Assembly: GCA_022841915.1 (NCBI GenBank)
Contig: JALHQN010000008.1
Span: 200,713 to 264,712 of the forward strand
From: Burkholderiales bacterium
GTDB lineage: Bacteria; Pseudomonadota; Gammaproteobacteria; Burkholderiales; WYBJ01
Length of the DNA stretch: 64,000 nt
Direction: 5' to 3'
Positions within the stretch are counted from its first letter, which is position 1, and each line of letters opens with the position of its first letter. This document shows positions 10,381-34,078 of the stretch, one piece after another. The position numbers and the translations under genes are program-made. Under the pieces are notes generated by a model. That model did not search any database. It saw only the letters and a program-made list of their open reading frames with translations, and was not told the origin of the DNA.

Positions 10381-12408
10381 GTGAGGCCCTTGCGAAATTC
10401 AACTGTTACAACATTATGCTTAGTAGCAGTATGTGCGACCCTTCATTGGACCTCGTTGCACGCGGCAGCTACTGAATCCTCTACCAAGCCAGAGCCCACT
10501 AGCCGAACTGCGACAGACCTAGCGGCGATGCAGAGTGATGCCAGCATAACCGGAGTGAGCGAGCTGGCTCGGCCGGAAACCGGCGTTTTTTTTGGCTTCC
10601 GATCAGCTACAGAAAACTGGGACGCGTTGCTGAATCGCTCTCGCCACGACAAGGCAATCGCCAATTGGATTAGCGCTGAAGCAAGACGAGTAGATCGGTG
10701 GATTGCCAGAAATTTCGAACGCCCCGATTTCGTCGGAGGATGGATACACGACTACGTTGATCCGAATACCGGGATTCCTCAAAAATGGACGCCTGATACA
10801 GCGGCTCCTGCAGAAGGAGCATCGGATAGAGCCAAGCGGTTTCTGGGCGCGTGGGTCGCGTTCGGACGTGGATACAATGTCCGACAGATGCATGCCGCCG
10901 CGCGGATTTATCGGGTAACTGGGGAGAGAAAGTATGCTGAATGGGCGGCTACACAACTCGATTTTTACGCAGAGAACTATAGTAAATGGCCGCTACAAAC
11001 GAAGGACGGGAAAAGTCGGTTGTATGCACAGGGCTTGGATGAAGCGGTTGACGCTTTTGCACTCTTGGATGTAGCCCGTCTCCTCTCCCACTACGCGAGT
11101 GAGAGTCGGCAGTCCAACTGGAAGAATAATCTTTTCCTTCCAATGGCAGCCAATCTTCCTCCCTCCATGGCGCCGATGAGCAATATTGGCCTTTGGCATC
11201 ATGCCGCCATAGCCGCAATCGCAATGCGCTTTCGCGACGATGCTTTGCTAGATCAGGCTCTGAATAGTCCAATCGGCATTCGAAAGGTCTTGGCTTTTGG
11301 CGTAACGGCCGATAACGTTTGGATCGAGGGCACTTTTGGGTATAACTACTATGTCACCAATGTGCTCTCCCAACTGCTTGTCCAGGCCGATCTCGAGGGT
11401 TATGGTGCACGATTCGATGTTGAACGAAATGCCGCGTTGCGGTTGCTCTTGGGCCCCCTTCTCTTTCGATTCGATAACAACACTCTCCCAAATCCCGCAG
11501 ACAGCACGAGTCGTTTCAACCCTACTGACGCGACTATTCATTGGCAGCTTTACCGAACCGTGCCGACCTACTGGGGGCGCAAGCGCGCGCGAGATCGACT
11601 GACTTGGGAATCACTTCTCGACCCCTCACCTCCAGTCCCATCTATCCCCCCAGCTCTTCCACAGCAGATAACCCGGAATTTCCCGGCGATTCGTTACGCA
11701 GTACTCCGCGCCGGCCAATGGCAAGCGTTCGTTCATTATGGCCAAGTGCATGGTCATCATGCACAGCATGAAATGACGAATTACGAACTTCACCTAGAAG
11801 ACGCTCCGATTACAATGGATCCTGGGACGGTTAGATACGGATCCCCCTATCACAAAGGCTATTTCGCTCAAGGCCCTGCGAACAATGTTCCCCTCGTCGA
11901 CGGGGCAGGCCAATTGATTTGGGCGCCTGGAACACTGCGGAGTTTTTCCGAGGATTCGAACCACTTGATCGTAGAACAGGCGAAGTATCAGAAGGATGCC
12001 AAAGTCGTTCGTGAATATCGCCTTGAGGACAGTGGGTTCACGGAAACCTCTACGATCACGGTGCCGTCAGGACAGAAGAGACGCCTTGGAGTAGTGTTCA
12101 ACACGGCGTGCGGAGTCTCAGCGGGATCAATCGTTAGAGTGGAGCCTGCGCCTCTATCCTTGCCTGACGTGAAGGCCTTCAGCTATTGGAGCAATGTTAA
12201 AGCATACTTGGGTGATAAGCGCTGGACCTTAGTGCTCGATTGCGGTCGGCATCGCTATAGCTATGAGGTCACCGGACCACAGAATCAACGGATCTACATA
12301 GGAACGGCGCCGAATACGCCACTACCGTCGCAACGCAACTCGGTCTATTACGAAACTGAAGGTGCAGAAGCTCAGTTCACCGCGCGGATTCGCCGTACCT
12401 CGCAATAA
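10381..12408 (+). CDS. heparinase II/III-family polysaccharide lyase
   Basis: The 675-residue protein starts at a GTG with a strong AAGGAGG ahead of it. A hydrophobic segment (about 10-29) is probably a signal peptide. An alpha-helical toroid of about 400 residues follows, then a beta-sandwich. Motifs at the places expected for this lyase fold are NIGLWHHA (268-275), GTFGYNYYV (317-325) and HGHHAQHE (457-464), matching the Asn/His/Tyr/His active-site pattern. Such enzymes cleave uronic-acid polysaccharides by beta-elimination. Beside ugd, it may trim or degrade the locus's own uronate-containing EPS in the periplasm or outside. Its TAA abuts the stop of the opposing glycosyltransferase with no gap. 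Confidence 0.82.
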   Translation: MRPLRNSTVTTLCLVAVCATLHWTSLHAAATESSTKPEPTSRTATDLAAMQSDASITGVSELARPETGVFFGFRSATENWDALLNRSRHDKAIANWISAEARRVDRWIARNFERPDFVGGWIHDYVDPNTGIPQKWTPDTAAPAEGASDRAKRFLGAWVAFGRGYNVRQMHAAARIYRVTGERKYAEWAATQLDFYAENYSKWPLQTKDGKSRLYAQGLDEAVDAFALLDVARLLSHYASESRQSNWKNNLFLPMAANLPPSMAPMSNIGLWHHAAIAAIAMRFRDDALLDQALNSPIGIRKVLAFGVTADNVWIEGTFGYNYYVTNVLSQLLVQADLEGYGARFDVERNAALRLLLGPLLFRFDNNTLPNPADSTSRFNPTDATIHWQLYRTVPTYWGRKRARDRLTWESLLDPSPPVPSIPPALPQQITRNFPAIRYAVLRAGQWQAFVHYGQVHGHHAQHEMTNYELHLEDAPITMDPGTVRYGSPYHKGYFAQGPANNVPLVDGAGQLIWAPGTLRSFSEDSNHLIVEQAKYQKDAKVVREYRLEDSGFTETSTITVPSGQKRRLGVVFNTACGVSAGSIVRVEPAPLSLPDVKAFSYWSNVKAYLGDKRWTLVLDCGRHRYSYEVTGPQNQRIYIGTAPNTPLPSQRNSVYYETEGAEAQFTARIRRTSQ

Positions 12409-17061: not shown

Positions 17062-18573
17062 TTATTTGTTCACGCCCGCTCGGGCTTTTCTGATGTAAGG
17101 CAACCCCATTGCAATCAATAGCCATAGTAGAGTCATATTGTGCACTATCGATAGGCCCGCAAAAGTCGCGAAGATTGCCAGTACCGAAGCAACGATCATC
17201 CCCACTTTGAAGCCATCAGCACCCCGTAGGCGCACGGCAGCCACTGTACCTTGATATGAAAACAGTCCGACGATTCCGATAAAGATGAGCAGACCAACGT
17301 ATCCCGAGTCCAGAGCCACTGAAAGCCAGTAACTATCGATCGTAGCTATACCAGCAGAGTTCAATAATCCTGCTTTGCCAATAGCCATCCCTTGGCCAAA
17401 CCCCCAAATTGGGCTCTCCCAGAGGGCTTGAATACCGCGCTCAATCATCAATAGACGCGTGCCGGTGCTCCCGACTTCCATCGCAGTACGTCCTTGAACC
17501 AGTTCGGACACCAACCACATTACCATTCCAACAATCGAGAGGAATGCAGGAATCGCTAACACGGCCAAAACCCGACGCAAACCGCGCGTCGAAATTGCCC
17601 GCAACCACACGATCAACCCGCCGAAAAGACATGCCGCCGCGAGACTTACAAGACTAGCGCGCGAGCCTGCTGTAACGAGGGCAAGTATGCCTATTGGCAC
17701 TAAGCTCAGCGCCATTAAACGCCATAACACACGTCGACCATAGATCGCGTAACTCATCCCGAGTGGCAGGACCGCTGCGATGAACTGCCCGAACGAAATC
17801 GGATGACTGAACACGGATTGAGCACGAAATCCCCCATCTCGAATTCGTTCAACGGCGAGCTGGCTCAGGGAATCGGCAGCCTCGGCATCGCCGCGGGCGA
17901 ATTGCACGAGGACGTTTTGTTGCATGAGGGCTTCGAGAAGGCCTATCAACGCAACGACTAGTCCTGTCGAAATTAGTGTCTTATGTAGCTGATCCTCACC
18001 ATGGTCGTAGCAGACGAGCGCGATACCAATCAAGAAGAAACTCGCCAGGTAAACGGATTCCCGTACAAAATCAATAGTCGAATACATGGGATGCTCGCCA
18101 GCCAATGCCGCTAGTAAGCGCCAAGCAAACCAGATAACAATCAAAACCCCAATGGCGGTGCCGAAGGTGTATTCGCGCACTGCGGCCCCGAGCCTTGGAG
18201 AATAGATTAACCAGAACATCACTGCGCCGAGGGATGCGACTGCCGTGATAGTTTGAGGACTTACATGTATGACGCCAAGTGAAAAGTGAATGTATCTCGG
18301 CCAAAGCACGGAAAGTGCGACCGTTGCAAGCAAGAGATAAACGATCGCTTTCGGGAGCAGCGTCGCCCTTGAATCTCGCATGGCCCAGGCCACGAGTACA
18401 AAGCCCACTCCCAAAGGAAGGATTGCGATGCGCAAAACGAACCCAGGTGGAAAAACGGCAGTGATCAGCCCGAGCAAGCCGCTTGCTCCAAGCAACACGA
18501 CACCAAGACCGATCGCGCCAATGAAGGAGGTTGAACGTCTACCTGCGGCGCGCGGGTAATGTCCGATTCTCAT
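17062..18573 (-). CDS. O-antigen ligase/polymerase-type membrane protein (Wzy-like)
   Basis: The 503-residue protein is almost entirely hydrophobic, with roughly a dozen membrane segments. A large periplasmic loop near the middle-to-C-terminal part contains GSTGTRLLMIERGIQALWE and SPIWGFGQGMAIG. These are typical of the Wzy_C/O-antigen-ligase family. GAGG precedes the ATG and the gap from the upstream gene is three bases. It would polymerise lipid-linked EPS repeat units in the periplasm. It is the only polymerase candidate in the locus, which fits a Wzx/Wzy-dependent pathway. Confidence 0.85.
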   Translation of the reverse strand: MRIGHYPRAAGRRSTSFIGAIGLGVVLLGASGLLGLITAVFPPGFVLRIAILPLGVGFVLVAWAMRDSRATLLPKAIVYLLLATVALSVLWPRYIHFSLGVIHVSPQTITAVASLGAVMFWLIYSPRLGAAVREYTFGTAIGVLIVIWFAWRLLAALAGEHPMYSTIDFVRESVYLASFFLIGIALVCYDHGEDQLHKTLISTGLVVALIGLLEALMQQNVLVQFARGDAEAADSLSQLAVERIRDGGFRAQSVFSHPISFGQFIAAVLPLGMSYAIYGRRVLWRLMALSLVPIGILALVTAGSRASLVSLAAACLFGGLIVWLRAISTRGLRRVLAVLAIPAFLSIVGMVMWLVSELVQGRTAMEVGSTGTRLLMIERGIQALWESPIWGFGQGMAIGKAGLLNSAGIATIDSYWLSVALDSGYVGLLIFIGIVGLFSYQGTVAAVRLRGADGFKVGMIVASVLAIFATFAGLSIVHNMTLLWLLIAMGLPYIRKARAGVNK

Positions 18574-18576
18574 AGC

Positions 18577-19752
18577 TCAGACCTCGCTCATTGCATTTTC
18601 CATAAACGCTTCGTAGCGCTCAATTCGCGCGTCAACCGCCTTCAACGAATCGCGGACTTCTATTGCGGCTAGTTTTCGCTCCTCAAAAGCTCTAAGTATT
18701 TTCTTGATTATGATTTCTTGATCGTCGGTTCGACAATCGGCGATTCGATGGTAATTAAGACTGTTAAATAAGCCGTTAAATTTTCTACTATAGGCCATTG
18801 GAACGACAGGAACGCCACTCGAGAATGCCGCAATGCACGCATGCATCCTGGCACCGACAAAGAAGTCGAGTCCTGCAATGAAGCTCTTTGCTTGGGATGG
18901 GCGGGAAAATTTCGGCCCTAAAAGTACGTTAGGGAATTCTGCAGCTAGTATCTCGCACGCACGAACATCATCTTCCACCCTATGCGATGCGGCGAACACG
19001 TGACTCACCAACACGACCACCGCTCCTGGTCGCGCGCACAATTCCCGCAAGATCGCGCGGATCGCAATAGCGTAGTCAATACGTAGGCCGAACTGATTTC
19101 CCCCGCTATAGCCACCGTTGAATAACAGTCCTGAGACGTTGAGTCCGATGCGTATCAAAGGGCGAACGGTTGAAGTAGAGGAGTTCTCGAATGGCAGCCG
19201 GAACGCCACGTCAGTTGCCTCCTGGACATTGGCATGAATGCCCAGCGACCTGAGGTATTCGGTCGACAATGAATCGCGGGTAAATATTACTGCACTGCGA
19301 CGCAGCACCTGCTTTGCCAGAACGCGAGCCATAATCGAGTCGAAGGGTCCGATGGTTTGTGGCGCGAGTACTAGCGGCTTGCCTAACGCGATTACGATGT
19401 TCTTGCTAAGCCAGTAGTGGAAAAAGCGCTTGAACCCGTAGAGATCGGCAAAGCTATCACCTTCACCGATATCGACTATAAGGTCACACCCTCTGATTGC
19501 GCTCCGGAACCCCGATCGGAAGGTTCTAATTCGTAGAACCTCTAGGTCATGGCCAGCCTCATTGAGCGCCACCTTAAGGTCGGCGCGAGTTACTTCGCTG
19601 GTTCCCAGAACAACGAATTGAACACTCAGCCCCTTGCGCTCAGCGATTGATCTAAGAATGGCAATATTGGCTTCAGTTAGGGCACCCACACCAAGGTTTC
19701 CGGATCCTAGGGAGTGCCAAAGCAGCCCGATCCTGATTACATTTCGCGCCAC
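18577..19752 (-). CDS. polysaccharide pyruvyl transferase family protein
   Basis: The product of 391 residues contains IGLLWHSLGSGNLGVGALTEAN, PLVLAPQTIGPF and a C-terminal FFVGARMHACIAAFSSGVPVVPMAYSRKF. These are the three hallmarks of the polysaccharide pyruvyl transferase family, which transfers pyruvate ketal from phosphoenolpyruvate to sugars. The start was set at GTG 19752 because GGAGGG precedes it by five bases. A TTG twenty codons upstream (19812) is the longer alternative. It follows the nitroreductase-like gene closely and precedes the polymerase. An acidic pyruvyl group on the EPS is therefore possible but unproved. Confidence 0.85.
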   Translation of the reverse strand: MARNVIRIGLLWHSLGSGNLGVGALTEANIAILRSIAERKGLSVQFVVLGTSEVTRADLKVALNEAGHDLEVLRIRTFRSGFRSAIRGCDLIVDIGEGDSFADLYGFKRFFHYWLSKNIVIALGKPLVLAPQTIGPFDSIMARVLAKQVLRRSAVIFTRDSLSTEYLRSLGIHANVQEATDVAFRLPFENSSTSTVRPLIRIGLNVSGLLFNGGYSGGNQFGLRIDYAIAIRAILRELCARPGAVVVLVSHVFAASHRVEDDVRACEILAAEFPNVLLGPKFSRPSQAKSFIAGLDFFVGARMHACIAAFSSGVPVVPMAYSRKFNGLFNSLNYHRIADCRTDDQEIIIKKILRAFEERKLAAIEVRDSLKAVDARIERYEAFMENAMSEV

Positions 19753-19814
19753 TTCGACCCTCCGGGACGATGAGTTACTGCATTTTTCTTCGGCATCCAG
19801 GTGCCTTGGCAAGA

Positions 19815-20864
19815 CTAGGACTCGAGACTTCGGTACTGTAGTACTTCCTCAATACCCCTTCGCACCGAGCAAGCAACGGCCAGCTGCCTTGGCGGGCGGC
19901 CTGCCGCCACGAACATAACAATGATTTCGTGGTTGGGCAGCTTAATGAGGGAGCGCATCTCTCTGTCCTCTTCGGGACTCTTGCTCCAATTCAAGCAGCA
20001 GGAGCCGAGACCTTGCATATGTAATCCGAGCAAAAAATTCATCGCAAACAATCCGCCGTCGATCCAGGCTTGATATCGTTCACCAACCCCGAAAAAATTC
20101 CTTACATCGACAGTCACACAAAATAGGGCGGGCACCTCACTCGCGAAGCCTTTCGCGCCCCCCTGTAGGTCCAGAATTTTTTGGATATCGTCACGATCGA
20201 GGAACGCATAGATGCGCCCCGACTGCCGATTGCAGACGGCCGGCGCGGTTTGCGCTATCTCAACTGCCTCCTCAATATCCTTGGCATCTAGTGGCTCGCT
20301 CGAGAATTGTCGACAACTGTGCCGAGCCCTAAAAAAGGCACTTGTTGTGCCGACTAGGTTCTCAGCCACGTCAGCATAGTCGATTGCAACGACTCCTCCG
20401 CACAATGTCGGAACACGGCCTTCGGCATTCTTCTGCACTAGTTGCGCCCACTTCTGCCGAATTTCGGCGACATCGTGTCCGCGCGCTTCATGATGAAGGA
20501 TGTAAGCGGAAAGCGCCCCCAACGGTGCATCCAAATAGCTGCGCGGGCCGAACCGTTTGTGAGCCTCCTCCACAAATGCGATTAGGCGCGCTAAATGAGC
20601 TTTACCAAAACCTAACCGCGGGGAAGACAACGCCAATCCCTTCTCGAGCGAATGATAGGTCGCAGTTATCAGTGCCCTTAGCTTTTCCTCCTCATCCTCG
20701 TAATTCACTACGGACGAACTTCGAACATAGATTCCAAGATCATAGACACCAGCAAACACCAATGCTGGTAATCGCCTGATGTAACGCAGCCCACGAATGA
20801 GCTGTTGCGGAAGTACGGCTCGCAACCTCTTCCGTACTTCTAGACTTCGAGTCGGATTGAGCAT
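19815..20864 (-). CDS. nitroreductase-like protein with helical N-terminal domain
   Basis: The 349-residue protein has two parts. Residues 1-170 are a helical region with the motif TYHSLEKGL (69-77) and SPRLGFG. Residues 175-349 resemble a nitroreductase domain: FFRARHSCRQFSSEPL (FMN phosphate binding), QTAPAVCNRQ, and AWIDGGLFAMNFLLGLHMQGLGSCCLNW. Plain nitroreductases are about 170-220 residues, so the N-terminal half is an addition. The ATG at 20864 lies 17 bases after the flippase stop and avoids overlap; a longer frame upstream exists. Its role in the EPS cluster is unknown; a flavin-dependent modification of a sugar or lipid intermediate is speculative. Confidence 0.8.
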   Translation of the reverse strand: MLNPTRSLEVRKRLRAVLPQQLIRGLRYIRRLPALVFAGVYDLGIYVRSSSVVNYEDEEEKLRALITATYHSLEKGLALSSPRLGFGKAHLARLIAFVEEAHKRFGPRSYLDAPLGALSAYILHHEARGHDVAEIRQKWAQLVQKNAEGRVPTLCGGVVAIDYADVAENLVGTTSAFFRARHSCRQFSSEPLDAKDIEEAVEIAQTAPAVCNRQSGRIYAFLDRDDIQKILDLQGGAKGFASEVPALFCVTVDVRNFFGVGERYQAWIDGGLFAMNFLLGLHMQGLGSCCLNWSKSPEEDREMRSLIKLPNHEIIVMFVAAGRPPRQLAVACSVRRGIEEVLQYRSLES

Positions 20865-20881: not shown

Positions 20882-22165
20882 TTATACTGCCTTTTGTCGT
20901 GCTTTCATTACGACAATCCATTGCATCGCTGCAATACACGCATATGCCCAGCACATCGCGATCGCAGCCCCCGGCGCCCCCTGCTCACTCATGAGGGGTG
21001 CGCCAACCCCACAAAGCACCAAAAGCCCCGCTGCACTTGAAGCTGCTCGAGCGCCCTGCCGCCCGCTTACTATAAGCAGAACGCCGGCAGCGGCACCAAG
21101 GAATCTAATGGCCAGAAAGAACGCGAGGATGTTCAACACTGGCCCGACCAACAAGAAGCCTTCGCCGAACACCCGAGCCGCGATGAAGTCGGAAGCAAGA
21201 AACAATCCACCTCCCAAAACGACTCCGGCCATTCCGAACAATAGCGTAACCTTCGTCATAGCTCCGCTGGTTGGCAGCGGGCCGCGAGTTGATCGAGAAA
21301 GCCTCGGCAATACGACGTTTACAAGTATCGAAATCGTCTGGGATAACCCATGTGCGATGCGCATGCCAGCTTGGTATAGACCCACGGCGACCGTTCCGGC
21401 ATAGGCGTTCAACAGAACGACATCGACCTGTACCAAGGAAGCCTGTAGGCCATAGTCTACAAAGTAGGCTTTCGCCATTTTTACTATATTCGCCATTTTT
21501 GAAAAAACGGGACGAGGCCATGCTCCAATAACAAGAAACAGCGTTCGAGCCGCTAGCAGTAGTCCCACAATTCTCGACACAAAAAACGCGAAAGCGACTG
21601 CAATGGGATCAGTCCATACAAGGGCTGCTGCTGAAACAACGACCAGATACATTAGGCTCTGGACAGTCACATTACGCGTCTCGCGAGAGAACGCCCCGGC
21701 AACTCTCAGGCGAGCGCATATAAGTTCGGTAAATGACTCGGTCGCATGAGTAAGGAACAGAGGCCAAAGTAGTAACTTAGCGCCAGGATATAGCGAACCT
21801 GCCAGCAGCAATCCAAAGCTGGTTATTGCCAGTAGCACCAACTTGAGGCCTATCGCTCGGCCGAGAATTTCGTTGCCTCCGTCAGGAGCTCGGGAACCTT
21901 CTCGCAACAAGAACGGTGTGAGACCAAAGTTCGTAGGTAGAGCAACCAAAGCGCCAACCGCGAACCAAGTAACTACAACACCAAAATTCTCCAGCCCCAG
22001 AACTCGCGCAAGCACTACGAAAAGAAGAAGTCCGGAGCCCAACCTTAAGGTAGTGCTACCGCCCATCCATGCAAGATCAGCGACAATGCCGCGACGCTCA
22101 CTCAAGACCGTCACCTTGGTGACGCTACGCTCAAGGGTGGACGCATAGGCCGCTCTGCGGCCCAT
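20882..22165 (-). CDS. polysaccharide flippase (Wzx/MATE-type)
   Basis: The 427-residue integral membrane protein has about twelve predicted hydrophobic segments. The N-terminal VADLAWMGGSTTLRLGSGLLLFVVLARVLG is typical of the oligosaccharide flippase family (segments of it are cited here in short form only). It would carry undecaprenyl-linked repeat units across the inner membrane. It starts the variable cassette, after a 213-base gap downstream of epsI. The first codons (to about residue 14) may not be translated, since the conserved hydrophobic core starts later. Confidence 0.85.
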   Translation of the reverse strand: MGRRAAYASTLERSVTKVTVLSERRGIVADLAWMGGSTTLRLGSGLLLFVVLARVLGLENFGVVVTWFAVGALVALPTNFGLTPFLLREGSRAPDGGNEILGRAIGLKLVLLAITSFGLLLAGSLYPGAKLLLWPLFLTHATESFTELICARLRVAGAFSRETRNVTVQSLMYLVVVSAAALVWTDPIAVAFAFFVSRIVGLLLAARTLFLVIGAWPRPVFSKMANIVKMAKAYFVDYGLQASLVQVDVVLLNAYAGTVAVGLYQAGMRIAHGLSQTISILVNVVLPRLSRSTRGPLPTSGAMTKVTLLFGMAGVVLGGGLFLASDFIAARVFGEGFLLVGPVLNILAFFLAIRFLGAAAGVLLIVSGRQGARAASSAAGLLVLCGVGAPLMSEQGAPGAAIAMCWAYACIAAMQWIVVMKARQKAV

Positions 22166-22378: not shown

Positions 22379-23065
22379 TCACGGCACACCTTTTCCAGCT
22401 AGCCTCTCCCGTGCCTGAGGCGTCATCGCTTGTAACATCTCGTGCAGAAACGTTTTCTGAGCCTCATAGGCAAGGTCTGCATCGCGACCGATTGAAGATG
22501 CACGCACGAGCATACCGTCTGGCACGCTGCCAGCCATCCCAAACTTAAGCTGTGCGAGCTTTCTCCGTATCCCATTGTTTACGACTTGATCGCCCACTGT
22601 GATCCAATAGGTAATTGGCTCCACTCGGTTACCAAGAGTCGCGATCACTTGACGGATCGGAATTAACGTCCCATTGAAATCCATCCGCGCCTCGGCGGAT
22701 TTTTTTACTTGAAACCCTTGGGCCGCATAGCACACTTCGGGCAGATGCACCTGCATTGCATCGCTCTGGTCGCCACCATAAGCGACCGACAGCATGATGC
22801 GCTGCCCGCGAGCATTCACATAAGTTCTGGCTAACGTTTGATTGTACAACTTGTCAAGTTGAGCCTGAACATCTGGCGAAGGCAACAGAGGAACGACGGT
22901 GTTGTCCAAGCGCCATTCTCCGAACTGCTTGGGAACCATCGCCTCCAGATCGACTTTCGGCCCGACGTCGGCGAGCATTTCAGTGGGTCGCAGTGCGACG
23001 GCCGAGACGCTCGCCGCCACCATCAGGGCAGCCATGAAAATGGCAGTGCGCAGTTGCGGGATCAT
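22379..23065 (-). CDS. epsI: EpsI family exosortase-associated protein
   Basis: The 228-residue protein has an N-terminal membrane/signal segment (LRTAIFMAALMVAASVSAVAL). The family features follow: VPKQFGEWRLD, then LARTYVNARGQRIMLSVAYG, and LPEVCYAAQGF with an invariant cysteine. EpsI proteins accompany exosortases and are fused to them in some systems; here they are separate. The ATG overlaps the xrtB stop codon by one base (TAATG). The function of EpsI is not established. The cysteine and the periplasmic location suggest a role in exosortase activity or EPS modification. Confidence 0.93.
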   Translation of the reverse strand: MIPQLRTAIFMAALMVAASVSAVALRPTEMLADVGPKVDLEAMVPKQFGEWRLDNTVVPLLPSPDVQAQLDKLYNQTLARTYVNARGQRIMLSVAYGGDQSDAMQVHLPEVCYAAQGFQVKKSAEARMDFNGTLIPIRQVIATLGNRVEPITYWITVGDQVVNNGIRRKLAQLKFGMAGSVPDGMLVRASSIGRDADLAYEAQKTFLHEMLQAMTPQARERLAGKGVP

Positions 23066-23958
23066 TACGAGGGGCTCCCTTCGATAGCTACCGGCGCCGC
23101 GCGCCGTTTGCGAAAATCCAAGACGTACTGAATCAATGAATCGATCGCCATGATCAGAATCAGCGCGGAGACGAACAGCACGATGCCTGCGAAGCCATGC
23201 AGAAAGCCCTGCCCCGCCTCGTCGCCGAAGTGATATGTCACAAGGGATAACGTGACGACGCGGATCACGTTGGCGGTCAGGGAGATCGGGATGATCAAGG
23301 TCGCCAACAGCACGTTGCGCCACCACGAGCCGCGCTGGGTGAGGTGCAGATAGAACAGCCCCATCGCCTCCAGCGAAAAGAGCGTGTGCAGCCCGGCGCA
23401 CGCGTCGGCCACGAGCAATTGGTACTGGCCCAGGTAGAGGATCACGCCGCTTCGGGATATGGGGTAGCCTACGGCATACAGCACGTGCTCGGTCGCCCAC
23501 GATACGAAAGTCTTCATGGGAAGCGTGAGGCTGTCTACCACCGGCCCGGGCAGCGGAATCATGAACAACAGAAAGAAGATCGGGAACCAGACCGCCTTCA
23601 GCGCTTGCGTACCCCGCTGCGCCAGAATCAAGGCGGGAATCACCACAAGCAGCGAGCCCAACTCGAAAATCATGATCGCTTGCGAGCGGCCGATCACGTA
23701 AAGGAGTAATCCAAACACAAGCAGCGGCCACGCAACCGCGTGGCGCGGCGCTACAGGCGCTTCATCGATCTTGGTGCGCAGCGACCAGAAGATGTAGAGC
23801 GCCACGGCGAACACGATCGGCCCGTGCATCTGGTCGTCGTTCTTCCACAAGCCGTTGGCCAAGTCGATGAACGTCGGCACATACATCGCCAGCAGGCCGA
23901 GCAGGTAAGGCACCCATTCGCCGATACGAAGATTCAAGTGGCCTGCGATCGCATTCAT
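23065..23958 (-). CDS. xrtB: exosortase B (XrtB)
   Basis: Inner-membrane cysteine transpeptidase of about 297 residues with some eight membrane segments. It carries the catalytic cysteine in ADACAGLHTLFSLEA, the arginine in TANVIRVV and the histidine in GFLHGFAGI, the Cys-Arg-His set of exosortases. Exosortases process proteins with a PEP-CTERM tail; two such proteins are coded nearby. The ATG at 23958 is preferred. A GTG three codons upstream (23967) would also serve, and neither has a clear ribosome-binding site. The flanking epsDEFG and epsI genes identify the B type. Confidence 0.95.
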   Translation of the reverse strand: MNAIAGHLNLRIGEWVPYLLGLLAMYVPTFIDLANGLWKNDDQMHGPIVFAVALYIFWSLRTKIDEAPVAPRHAVAWPLLVFGLLLYVIGRSQAIMIFELGSLLVVIPALILAQRGTQALKAVWFPIFFLLFMIPLPGPVVDSLTLPMKTFVSWATEHVLYAVGYPISRSGVILYLGQYQLLVADACAGLHTLFSLEAMGLFYLHLTQRGSWWRNVLLATLIIPISLTANVIRVVTLSLVTYHFGDEAGQGFLHGFAGIVLFVSALILIMAIDSLIQYVLDFRKRRAAPVAIEGSPS

Positions 23959-24226
23959 CGATAGCACAATCCGCGAAATGTCGCGTTAGGTAGAGCCGCC
24001 AGCGAAAGACGAGCCAGGGTTCGGCTCGTGCTCGGGCGATAGCGGATGGACTTTGATTCGGTTGCAGTGGAAGCTAGCGCGCAGGTAGATACACCCGTTG
24101 GCGCCGAGTTGTATCGGCCTGGCGAAACCCGGCGCATGCACGGCGGCGAAATCTTGCTTCCCATGGATACGAGCGTCATGCGAGCGAAATAGTTTCCGGG
24201 TTTATTGGCAAAGCGACCGTCGACAC
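23959..24226. other. 268-base gap between epsG and xrtB
   Basis: The gap interrupts an otherwise tightly packed run. It contains a 7-base-arm hairpin (ACGAGCC at 24009-24015, GGCTCGT at 24023-24029) without a T-run. A minus-strand open frame spans it, but its product is rich in serine and arginine, has no recognisable motif, and I do not call it. Confidence 0.4.
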
Positions 24227-30586: not shown

Positions 30587-31327
30587 TTAAGCGAAGCGTT
30601 GTGCCGCGGTCTTCTTGCTGCGATTGCGTAGGCGGAAGCCCACCAGGCCGGCACCGATCAGCATCATGGCCCAAGCTTCGGGCTCAGGGATGGGGCTGAC
30701 GTTGACATCAATCGACACGAATTTCTTCTCGATCAAAGCCAATGAAGGATCCGGGCCTTGCGGTGTCGCCGCGAAAGCCGCGAGGATGTTCTGAACCGAG
30801 AAACTTAGCTCCCGCGTGTTCGCGAAACTTGCACCCGAAAGATCGGAAAAAGTGGATGCCGTCCAGTTCGTCGTGGTCAGGTCTGCCACCGTATTCACCG
30901 TGCCGAGACCAGTTGCCGCCAACGGCTTAATGATCCCGGGAGGGACCTGCGCCGTGTCGAACACGCGTGTTTGCCCGCCGACGCTGACGAAACTGCCCGC
31001 CCCCCACATGACATAGTCGCCGCCCTCGCTGAAGTCGATCGACTGGACGCGATAGCCATCGCGCACAACGATTTTCAGATTGACGGTATTTGCCTCGATG
31101 TCGAGACCGCCATTGGTTGCAAGCGCCTTGAAGTTGGAGGGCGAGAACGTGATCAGATCTCCGACCAAGGTCGGTGTTCCGAACGCCAGGAGGGTGGGCT
31201 GCGCATCGTCGTAAATGACATCGATGTTTGAACCGTTGAGAGTAATCAGTGCTGCCGAAGCCGGCAGCGACCCGGCTCCTACCAAGGCTAGGGCCGCTGC
31301 CCATTGCCTAAACGAAGCGTTTTTCAT
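30587..31327 (-). CDS. PEP-CTERM domain protein, candidate exosortase substrate
   Basis: The 246-residue secreted protein has a signal peptide (MKNASFRQWAAALALVGAG, cleaved near ASA/ALI). A beta-rich body and a C-terminal sorting tail follow: PEP at 214-216, then AWAMMLIGAGLVGFRL and the basic cluster RNRSKK. The tail continues nine residues past the basic cluster, longer than usual. The ATG at 31327 is chosen because AGAGGTGG precedes it and the signal peptide starts there. It stands alone, ending in a terminator, just upstream of the eps run. It may be an EPS-associated surface protein processed by XrtB. Confidence 0.85.
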   Translation of the reverse strand: MKNASFRQWAAALALVGAGSLPASAALITLNGSNIDVIYDDAQPTLLAFGTPTLVGDLITFSPSNFKALATNGGLDIEANTVNLKIVVRDGYRVQSIDFSEGGDYVMWGAGSFVSVGGQTRVFDTAQVPPGIIKPLAATGLGTVNTVADLTTTNWTASTFSDLSGASFANTRELSFSVQNILAAFAATPQGPDPSLALIEKKFVSIDVNVSPIPEPEAWAMMLIGAGLVGFRLRNRSKKTAAQRFA

Positions 31328-31421
31328 AATCCACCTCTTTCGATTTCTTGAGCCGCTAAATTGTTTAACGTGATACCTGCCGTCGGATGGAGACCGCTTG
31401 AAATCCCCAACTGCACTCAAA

Positions 31422-32981: not shown

Positions 32982-33770
32982 TCAGGCGCGACGACGCCGA
33001 CGCTTCACCACATAGCCGATCACCCCAAGGGCGGACAGCATCAGGGCGTACGTCTCCGGCTCGGGAACCGGTACGGCCGAGAAGTCCGCGCTTCCACGCA
33101 GACAGCCTGCCGGGCCGCATTCGCCTTGGCCGACGTAGAGCGGATTTACGCCGCTGAACGACGAGTTGAACTGGAAGTCCGCCGCGCCGCCGTACTGCGC
33201 GGTGATACCGTTGCCGTTGAAGTAGGCATTGGCAATGCCCCCTGCGCTGGTGTCGACGCTGGCAAGCCCGGTGCCGAAGGCGACCGGGTTGCTCGTGCCG
33301 ATGTTCACGCCGGTGCTCACGAACGTATTGCCCGCTGCGTCGACCTGATGGCCTCGCAAGGTGAGGAACAGCGTGCCGTTCGTCGCCTCGTTGATATCAC
33401 CTGCAAGACCGCCCGCGTTCGAGGTCGAGAAGTCCTTGGTTGCGCCCGTGCCCAGGTACACCTGGATCAGACCACCGTCGAAGGTGATCGCATTGGGCCC
33501 AATCGAGGTCACCGTGTAGTCGCTGAACCTGTAGGTCAGTTCACAATCGGCGCACAGGTCGCCCACCGCTTGCGAGTTGATCGAATCGATCTTCCCGTAA
33601 CCCGACAACGCCTCGCCGACCGCAGTCGGGATATTGGAATAGATCTGGCCCGCGGTGAACACCGAACTCGACGGCAACTCGATCCCGCCGATGTTGATGG
33701 CCAACGCCGGACTGGCCGCGGCGAGCAACAGGGACCCTGCTGCCAAGGCTTGCTTCGAACTTTTCTTCAT
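32982..33770 (-). CDS. PEP-CTERM domain protein, candidate exosortase substrate
   Basis: The 262-residue protein has a signal peptide (MKKSSKQALAAGSLLLAAASPALA, cleaved before INIGG). The tail is a standard sorting tag: PEP at 236-238, then TYALMLSALGVIGYVV and KRRRRRA. Two cysteine pairs stand out (CADC near residue 75, and CGPAGC near residue 222), which could form disulfides outside the cytoplasm. AAGGAG precedes the ATG at 33770; a GTG five codons earlier overlaps this site and is less likely. A single-gene unit closed by a strong terminator. Confidence 0.9.
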   Translation of the reverse strand: MKKSSKQALAAGSLLLAAASPALAINIGGIELPSSSVFTAGQIYSNIPTAVGEALSGYGKIDSINSQAVGDLCADCELTYRFSDYTVTSIGPNAITFDGGLIQVYLGTGATKDFSTSNAGGLAGDINEATNGTLFLTLRGHQVDAAGNTFVSTGVNIGTSNPVAFGTGLASVDTSAGGIANAYFNGNGITAQYGGAADFQFNSSFSGVNPLYVGQGECGPAGCLRGSADFSAVPVPEPETYALMLSALGVIGYVVKRRRRRA

Positions 33771-34078
33771 TACTGGCTCCTTCACGTGGTGTGGAGCGGA
33801 AAGAATGAACCGGCGGATTGCACGCGCTTGCCAATTCAGTCACCTTCCGCAGATAAACAACATCGACGCCCGGGCATGCGCCGTGCCTTGCCTGAACGTC
33901 TAGCGGAGGTACGCAACTGCTGTGCACGCCCTACGCGCCGACTCAGTCGCATACCGTCGCTGAAGAGCGACAGTCTCACGACCTGGAAGTGAAGAAAATG
34001 CCTATGGCATGTTTCCTGCGGGCACTGGTTCGGCTGCTTCGCGCCTTACTCGAAGCGGGGACTTTCTCTATCGAGAAC
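33771..34078. other. intergenic region upstream of the second PEP-CTERM gene
   Basis: About 308 bases hold the PEP-CTERM promoter. A site at 33912-33928 (CGCAACTGCTGTGCACG) faintly resembles the TGCAAC repeat, but the spacing is eleven and the second half differs. No open frame is credible. Confidence 0.4.

Follow-up and report, generated by a model that had tools for sequence, protein, structure and literature searches.

Some capsules and O antigens are known to carry lactyl (1-carboxyethyl) ethers. A described route to such an ether is that of MurA and MurB in muramic acid synthesis, in which enolpyruvyl transfer is followed by flavin reduction to a lactyl ether. By analogy, the reaction proposed here for a nitroreductase-like protein (NTR) and an adjoining polysaccharide pyruvyl transferase family protein (PPT) would follow the same logic and give the same type of product. 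The proteins themselves differ: neither NTR nor PPT matches the MurA or MurB family, and MurA and MurB act on UDP-GlcNAc. WcaK and CsaB, which form ketals, belong to the same PF04230 family as PPT and share its conserved R, D and H residues. No NTR or FrhB gene is present among the colanic-acid neighbours of WcaK (wcaL, wcaM, and wzxC). We know of no PF04230 enzyme that makes an enolpyruvyl ether instead of a ketal. A search of open-licence papers found neither biochemical evidence for an enolpyruvyl product of PF04230 nor enzymes proposed for lactyl ethers outside peptidoglycan, and for nitroreductases together with pyruvyl or O-antigen it returned one relevant paper (PMC4616057). In Enterococcus faecalis, the capsule operon contains the gene for a MurB-family protein, cpsG (PMC2766626), and the CPS-C/D glycan of this lactylated capsule carries lactic acid on Galf O-3 (PMC3060912).

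The window analyzed here is a 64,000-nucleotide stretch of DNA from a Burkholderiales bacterium. The initial annotation placed a gene at 19815-20864 between a flippase and a pyruvyl transferase, and described its residues 175-349 as FMN nitroreductase-like and its residues 1-170 as an unusual helical domain containing TYHSLEKGL and SPRLGFG. Open reading frames and Pfam matches confirmed the position, with the strand corrected to minus, and the two-domain description agreed with the analyses below. Translation of the reverse complement gave an ATG start at 20864 and a stop at 19815, and the plus strand of the same interval was riddled with stops. Starting from an alternative GTG at 20954 would lengthen the protein by 30 residues. 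The features are listed in Table 1. Flippase, NTR and PPT lie on one strand; the gap between flippase and NTR is 17 bp, and the first possible PPT start lies 2 bp beyond NTR. The setting is an EPS cluster of the XrtB exosortase type that includes Wzy and glycosyltransferases; reading the translations identified a CpsD-like kinase there, as well as an export protein. The XrtB exosortase and, farther along, two proteins with PEP-CTERM-like tails were located at 23065-23967, 30587-31420 and 32982-33785.

Table 1. Features of the NTR locus: feature, position in the window, strand, and basis of assignment
Two-domain nitroreductase-like gene (NTR)	19815..20864	-	349 aa; ORF calls, PF00881, AF2 model
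N-terminal six-helix domain, residues 1-165	20370..20864	-	AF2; without known family or fold
HxxEKGL motif (H71, E74, K75)	20634..20654	-	Homologue alignment; K75 kept in 55/55 EPS-linked homologues
SPRLGFG motif, residues 81-87	20604..20624	-	Alignment; F86 and G87 nearly invariant
C-terminal nitroreductase domain, residues 175-349	19818..20342	-	PF00881 E=6e-19; Foldseek PDB matches are nitroreductases
R181-x-S183-x-R185	20310..20324	-	Alignment; invariant or nearly so
P208-A-V-C211-N212-R213-Q-S	20220..20243	-	Alignment; invariant core, predicted flavin pocket region
Wzx-type flippase	20882..22165	-	PF01943/PF13440; upstream member of conserved flippase-NTR-PPT triad
Polysaccharide pyruvyl transferase family gene (PPT), partner	18577..19812	-	PF04230 E=5e-30; R179, D201, H324 conserved
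Wzy-type polymerase / O-antigen ligase family	17062..18573	-	PF04932

PF00881 (Nitroreductase) matched NTR from residue 179 with E=6e-19 and 69.3 bits, against a curated cut-off of 23.5, and was the sole Pfam family above cut-off. An AlphaFold2 model of the whole protein, built with 69 homologues, had a mean pLDDT of 95.4. It predicted helices at residues 4-17, 20-49, 59-77, 88-105, 109-127 and 133-147, followed by an alpha/beta nitroreductase domain. Foldseek matched the model to many nitroreductases in the PDB (E to 1e-10, TMt up to ~0.8); the query-normalised TM-score of ~0.4 corresponds to about half of the protein being covered. The N-terminal half modelled alone (58 homologues) again gave six helices, with a pLDDT of 92.3. 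In none of the 58 homologues did residues 1-165 match a Pfam family, the best Foldseek hit of this domain against PDB folds had an E of 0.77 and was no match, and a search against PDB sequences returned nothing convincing. Family searches with NTR gave no match to the MurB domain or to PF04422/PF04432, the FrhB/FdhB-type families.

The C-terminal 175 residues resemble PF00881 members (PDB 8cqt, 4dn2 and 9exv; CLA-ER, 4qlx) in sequence, fold, R-x-S-x-R and PSxxNxQ. In all 69 homologues, R181, R185, P208, C211, N212, R213, E262, R263 and D269 of the flavin domain were invariant, and S183 was conserved in at least 90%. The position of R181-x-S183-x-R185 is presumably that of the nitroreductase FMN-phosphate motif. 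NTR differs from those nitroreductases in its extra six-helix N-terminal domain, where D42, H71, E74 and K75 were invariant across the EPS-type set (TYHSLEKGL being residues 69-77), and in its EPS/PPT context, which holds for all clades but one. Sequence and predicted fold place NTR in the nitroreductase superfamily, with the addition of a domain that has no known family.

NTR is sporadic, being found in 8/300 genomes of the same order and 6/369 of the class. From GTDB species genomes and plasmid records, 80 NTR loci were collected, covering Pseudomonadota, Cyanobacteriota, Planctomycetota, Verrucomicrobiota, Bacteroidota, Bacillota, Actinomycetota and other phyla. Neighbours were surveyed by profiles for PPT, flippase and glycosyltransferases, and the flippase-NTR-PPT order recurred across the loci. 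A PPT was present in 53 of the 55 non-redundant EPS-type loci (51 by profile and two, L035 and L074, by Pfam); the loci were chosen by NTR presence, so this figure measures PPT given NTR and not NTR given PPT. Among the 97 PPTs collected, 75 were within 3.5 kb of NTR, 49 were within 100 bp, and four were fused to it in single polypeptides (L011, L012, L095 and L109). The NTR-linked PPTs split into two deep PPT clades, so inheritance of a single operon among close relatives does not explain the pairing. Exactly one PF04230 gene was found in the window's genome, and it adjoins NTR; only 13/60 related genomes had any PF04230 gene. In the alignment, linked PPTs all had R179 and D201, and 73/74 had H324, residues that the ketal-forming WcaK also has; the partner PPT thus belongs to PF04230 by profile match and by its conserved R, D and H. 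Among the most conserved alignment columns, no residue signature parted NTR-linked from unlinked PPTs.

The initial annotation had suggested a flavin-dependent step linked to pyruvylation, which would imply co-occurrence with pyruvyl transferase genes, an EPS association of homologues and retention of the FMN-binding residues. The PPT counts bear out the first, the association was found with the exception of one lone alphaproteobacterial clade, and R-x-S-x-R and PSxCNRQ are retained in homologues. Together with the PPT-NTR fusions, these observations strongly support the link to PPT and support such a step. Nitroreductases are common and promiscuous, and a generic nitroreductase or flavin reductase might sit in an EPS cluster by chance. 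We give this explanation almost no credence, as it is opposed by the conservation of the two-domain family and its cluster-specific lysine, by dozens of adjoining PPTs in many phyla, and by the position of the genome's one PF04230 gene next door.

Several further arrangements were observed among the NTR loci. One EPS cluster (L094) contained two NTR-PPT pairs, with NTR at ~9.8 and 18.8 kb and PPT at 10.9 and 17.0 kb. In an exosortase cluster, a 742-aa protein (L084:8678-10906) had NTR at its C-terminal end and ~400 N-terminal residues without a Pfam match. In Anabaena sp. 4-3 (L022:8032-9129), an FMN-dependent dehydrogenase gene (PF01070) lies upstream of NTR before the end of the contig, beyond which a PPT could lie.

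The NTR slot can be occupied by another flavoprotein. In a genome of the window's genus (G055), a PPT 48% identical to that of the window overlaps by 29 bp an FrhB gene (PF04422/PF04432), and no NTR match was found in this assembly, which is 87% complete. The remaining two genomes of the same order with close FrhB relatives both had a PPT alongside. Loktanella salsilacus (L164) and Pseudorhodobacter turbinis (L013) share the cassette flippase-X-PPT-GT2, with identities of 71% for PPT, 61% for flippase and 68% for GT2. Slot X holds FrhB in the former and NTR in the latter, and the two sequences are unrelated. FrhB proteins, of the coenzyme F420 hydrogenase beta type, are like NTR predicted flavoproteins and take the same slot in flippase-X-PPT cassettes; unlike NTR, they have a Cys-rich, Fe-S-like N-terminal stretch, and the two have no sequence similarity. 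The partner role of NTR is exchangeable with an FrhB-type flavoprotein. That one slot is filled by two unrelated redox families argues that PPT needs a redox step.

FrhB-type genes directly beside PPT were located in L140 (G055:C263), L164 (4-6.2 kb), L168 (6.8-9.3 kb) and L169 (8.1-10.6 kb); these include two different E. coli galF-gnd loci, those of O124/O164 and of strain IAI1. In E. coli, a search with the window's NTR found only three copies, all plasmid-borne, and searches with two other NTR queries found no match. The plasmid L170 has a PPT adjoining an NTR remnant and, separately, flippase-FrhB-PPT; some FrhB relatives on plasmids are without an adjoining PPT. The small E. coli plasmids L170 and L014 carry IS-flanked flippase-NTR-PPT and flippase-FrhB-PPT fragments, which are perhaps movable surface-sugar cassettes.

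The exchange also bears on whether NTR merely protects or activates PPT, as a redox sensor, chaperone or structural partner that itself catalyses no redox step. The unusual additional helical domain would suit such a helper. The nitroreductase core residues are nevertheless invariant over many phyla, and the substitute is another flavin/Fe-S family and no structural protein. We consider the helper role very unlikely.

Loci of polysaccharides with lactyl groups were then compared. The O antigen of E. coli O124/O164 (Shigella dysenteriae 3) contains 4-O-[(R)-1-carboxyethyl]-D-glucose and is not known to carry a pyruvate ketal. Its locus, found with a PPT query, reads wzx-FrhB-PPT-GT2 onward, and besides the sugar-backbone genes no further modification gene is visible in it. 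Among Klebsiella capsules, lactyl groups occur only in K22, K37 (both on GlcA) and K66 (on Glc) (PMC6856556, Table 1). That of K22 is 4-O-[(S)-1-carboxyethyl]-D-glucuronic acid, as named in the title of its structure paper, which PMC3857182 cites. In a survey of 79 Klebsiella cps loci (PMC4616057), the types with a PPT gene among 46 unpyruvylated ones were K8, K22, K37 and K66; for K8, PMC6856556 gives Galp-pyr. The chance that three given types would all be among 4 of 46 is 4/15180, or ~3e-4 as calculated by hand. K22 and K37 have near-identical cps and count once, which gives ~3e-3. Of the genes that the same survey counts across the 79 loci, two are nitroreductases and one is a coenzyme F420 hydrogenase homologue; its text leaves their K types unnamed (PMC4616057). 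The nitroreductases likely sit in K22 and K37. K22, K37 and K66 carry a PPT gene without pyruvate, indicating that PF04230 membership is no proof of a ketal product.

These loci help to weigh the possibility that NTR and FrhB oxidise or reduce some other pathway compound, such as a lipid-linked or nucleotide sugar, with PPT making plain ketals and the partnership being with a repeat-unit type and not with pyruvyl chemistry. Consistent with it, the flippase is an equally constant neighbour, and Wzx-dependent clusters have many genes in common. Four observations speak against it: the direct PPT fusions, the coupling to two deep PPT clades, the swap of the partner while PPT was kept, and the PPT genes of K22, K37 and K66 without pyruvate. 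We regard this possibility as rather improbable.

The FrhB swap and the correlation with lactyl polysaccharides suggest that the step is a reduction yielding a lactyl ether, and not one that helps to form a ketal. We propose that NTR is probably the flavin-dependent reductase in a pair of enzymes that decorates EPS repeat units: PPT would transfer an enolpyruvyl group, which NTR would convert by reduction into a 1-carboxyethyl (lactyl) ether. Through the PF04230 enzyme, a sugar hydroxyl would receive a three-carbon unit derived from PEP; PEP-dependent transfer would pass via a tetrahedral or oxocarbenium-like centre, and proton loss would give the enolpyruvyl ether. The FMN of the NTR domain would be charged by NAD(P)H. 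A hydride from the reduced flavin would then go to the CH2= carbon, and protonation at the neighbouring carbon would yield the lactyl ether. This reduction of the C=C bond would precede export of the lipid-linked unit by the flippase. The helical N-terminal domain, with H71, E74 and K75, is a candidate for supplying the proton and for gripping the carboxylate, the lipid-linked sugar or both. In this scheme, we infer the substrate, the C=C reduction, the lactyl product, the electron donor and the role of the N-terminal domain.

There are precedents for such a reduction in both families. CLA-ER (4qlx), a nitroreductase-fold enone reductase, was among the weak sequence matches of NTR, and BciB, of the FrhB family, is a vinyl reductase. 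These precedents show that the nitroreductase and FrhB families are both able to reduce C=C bonds. Alternatively, PPT might form an ordinary pyruvate ketal that the flavoenzyme then opens reductively to the lactyl ether. This sequence of steps would leave the gene association and the product class the same, and it fits the R/D/H residues that PPT shares with the ketal-forming WcaK. For flavin reduction of an unactivated ketal, however, there is no known precedent, whereas for that of an alpha,beta-unsaturated carboxylate there is one (MurB). We find ketal opening quite unlikely.

The most likely reading is that NTR reduces an enolpyruvyl ether within a lactyl-ether module; this reading supports and sharpens the earlier interpretation. 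More broadly, the chances seem evenly balanced that PF04230 with NTR or FrhB constitutes an enolpyruvyl transferase/reductase pathway that is widespread and has so far gone unrecognised, analogous but unrelated to MurA/MurB, with NTR as one of at least two interchangeable reductases and with many 'pyruvyl transferase' genes leading to lactyl ethers and not to ketals. If true, the lactyl ethers of surface polysaccharides would gain a biosynthetic pathway, and an uncharacterised two-domain flavoprotein family would be assigned a function. Capsules with lactate could be told from those with pyruvate by sequence alone, and the annotation of many 'pyruvyl transferases' would be corrected.

We also considered whether all NTR homologues are EPS-linked. 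This was rejected, as a well-supported alphaproteobacterial clade stands apart from EPS genes. It comprises 11 homologues from Hyphomicrobiales and Rhodobacterales (L040, L049, L058, L064, L065, L067, L068, L072, L080, L086 and L091), and their neighbours are ABC transporter, Asp/Glu racemase, amidase, hydantoinase or regulator genes. In the tree, they formed one supported, derived clade. K75 of HxxEKG is replaced by H, Y or G in this clade. Retention of K75 in the alignment appears to track EPS linkage, a correlation that is suggestive only, being a single event on the tree. The proteins of the lone clade probably act on a different substrate.

Another gene of the window, at 10381-12408, lies on the opposite strand beside EPS glycosyltransferases. 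Its product resembles heparinase II/III in its C-terminal domain and matches alginate lyase weakly; it is possibly an EPS-degrading or trimming enzyme.
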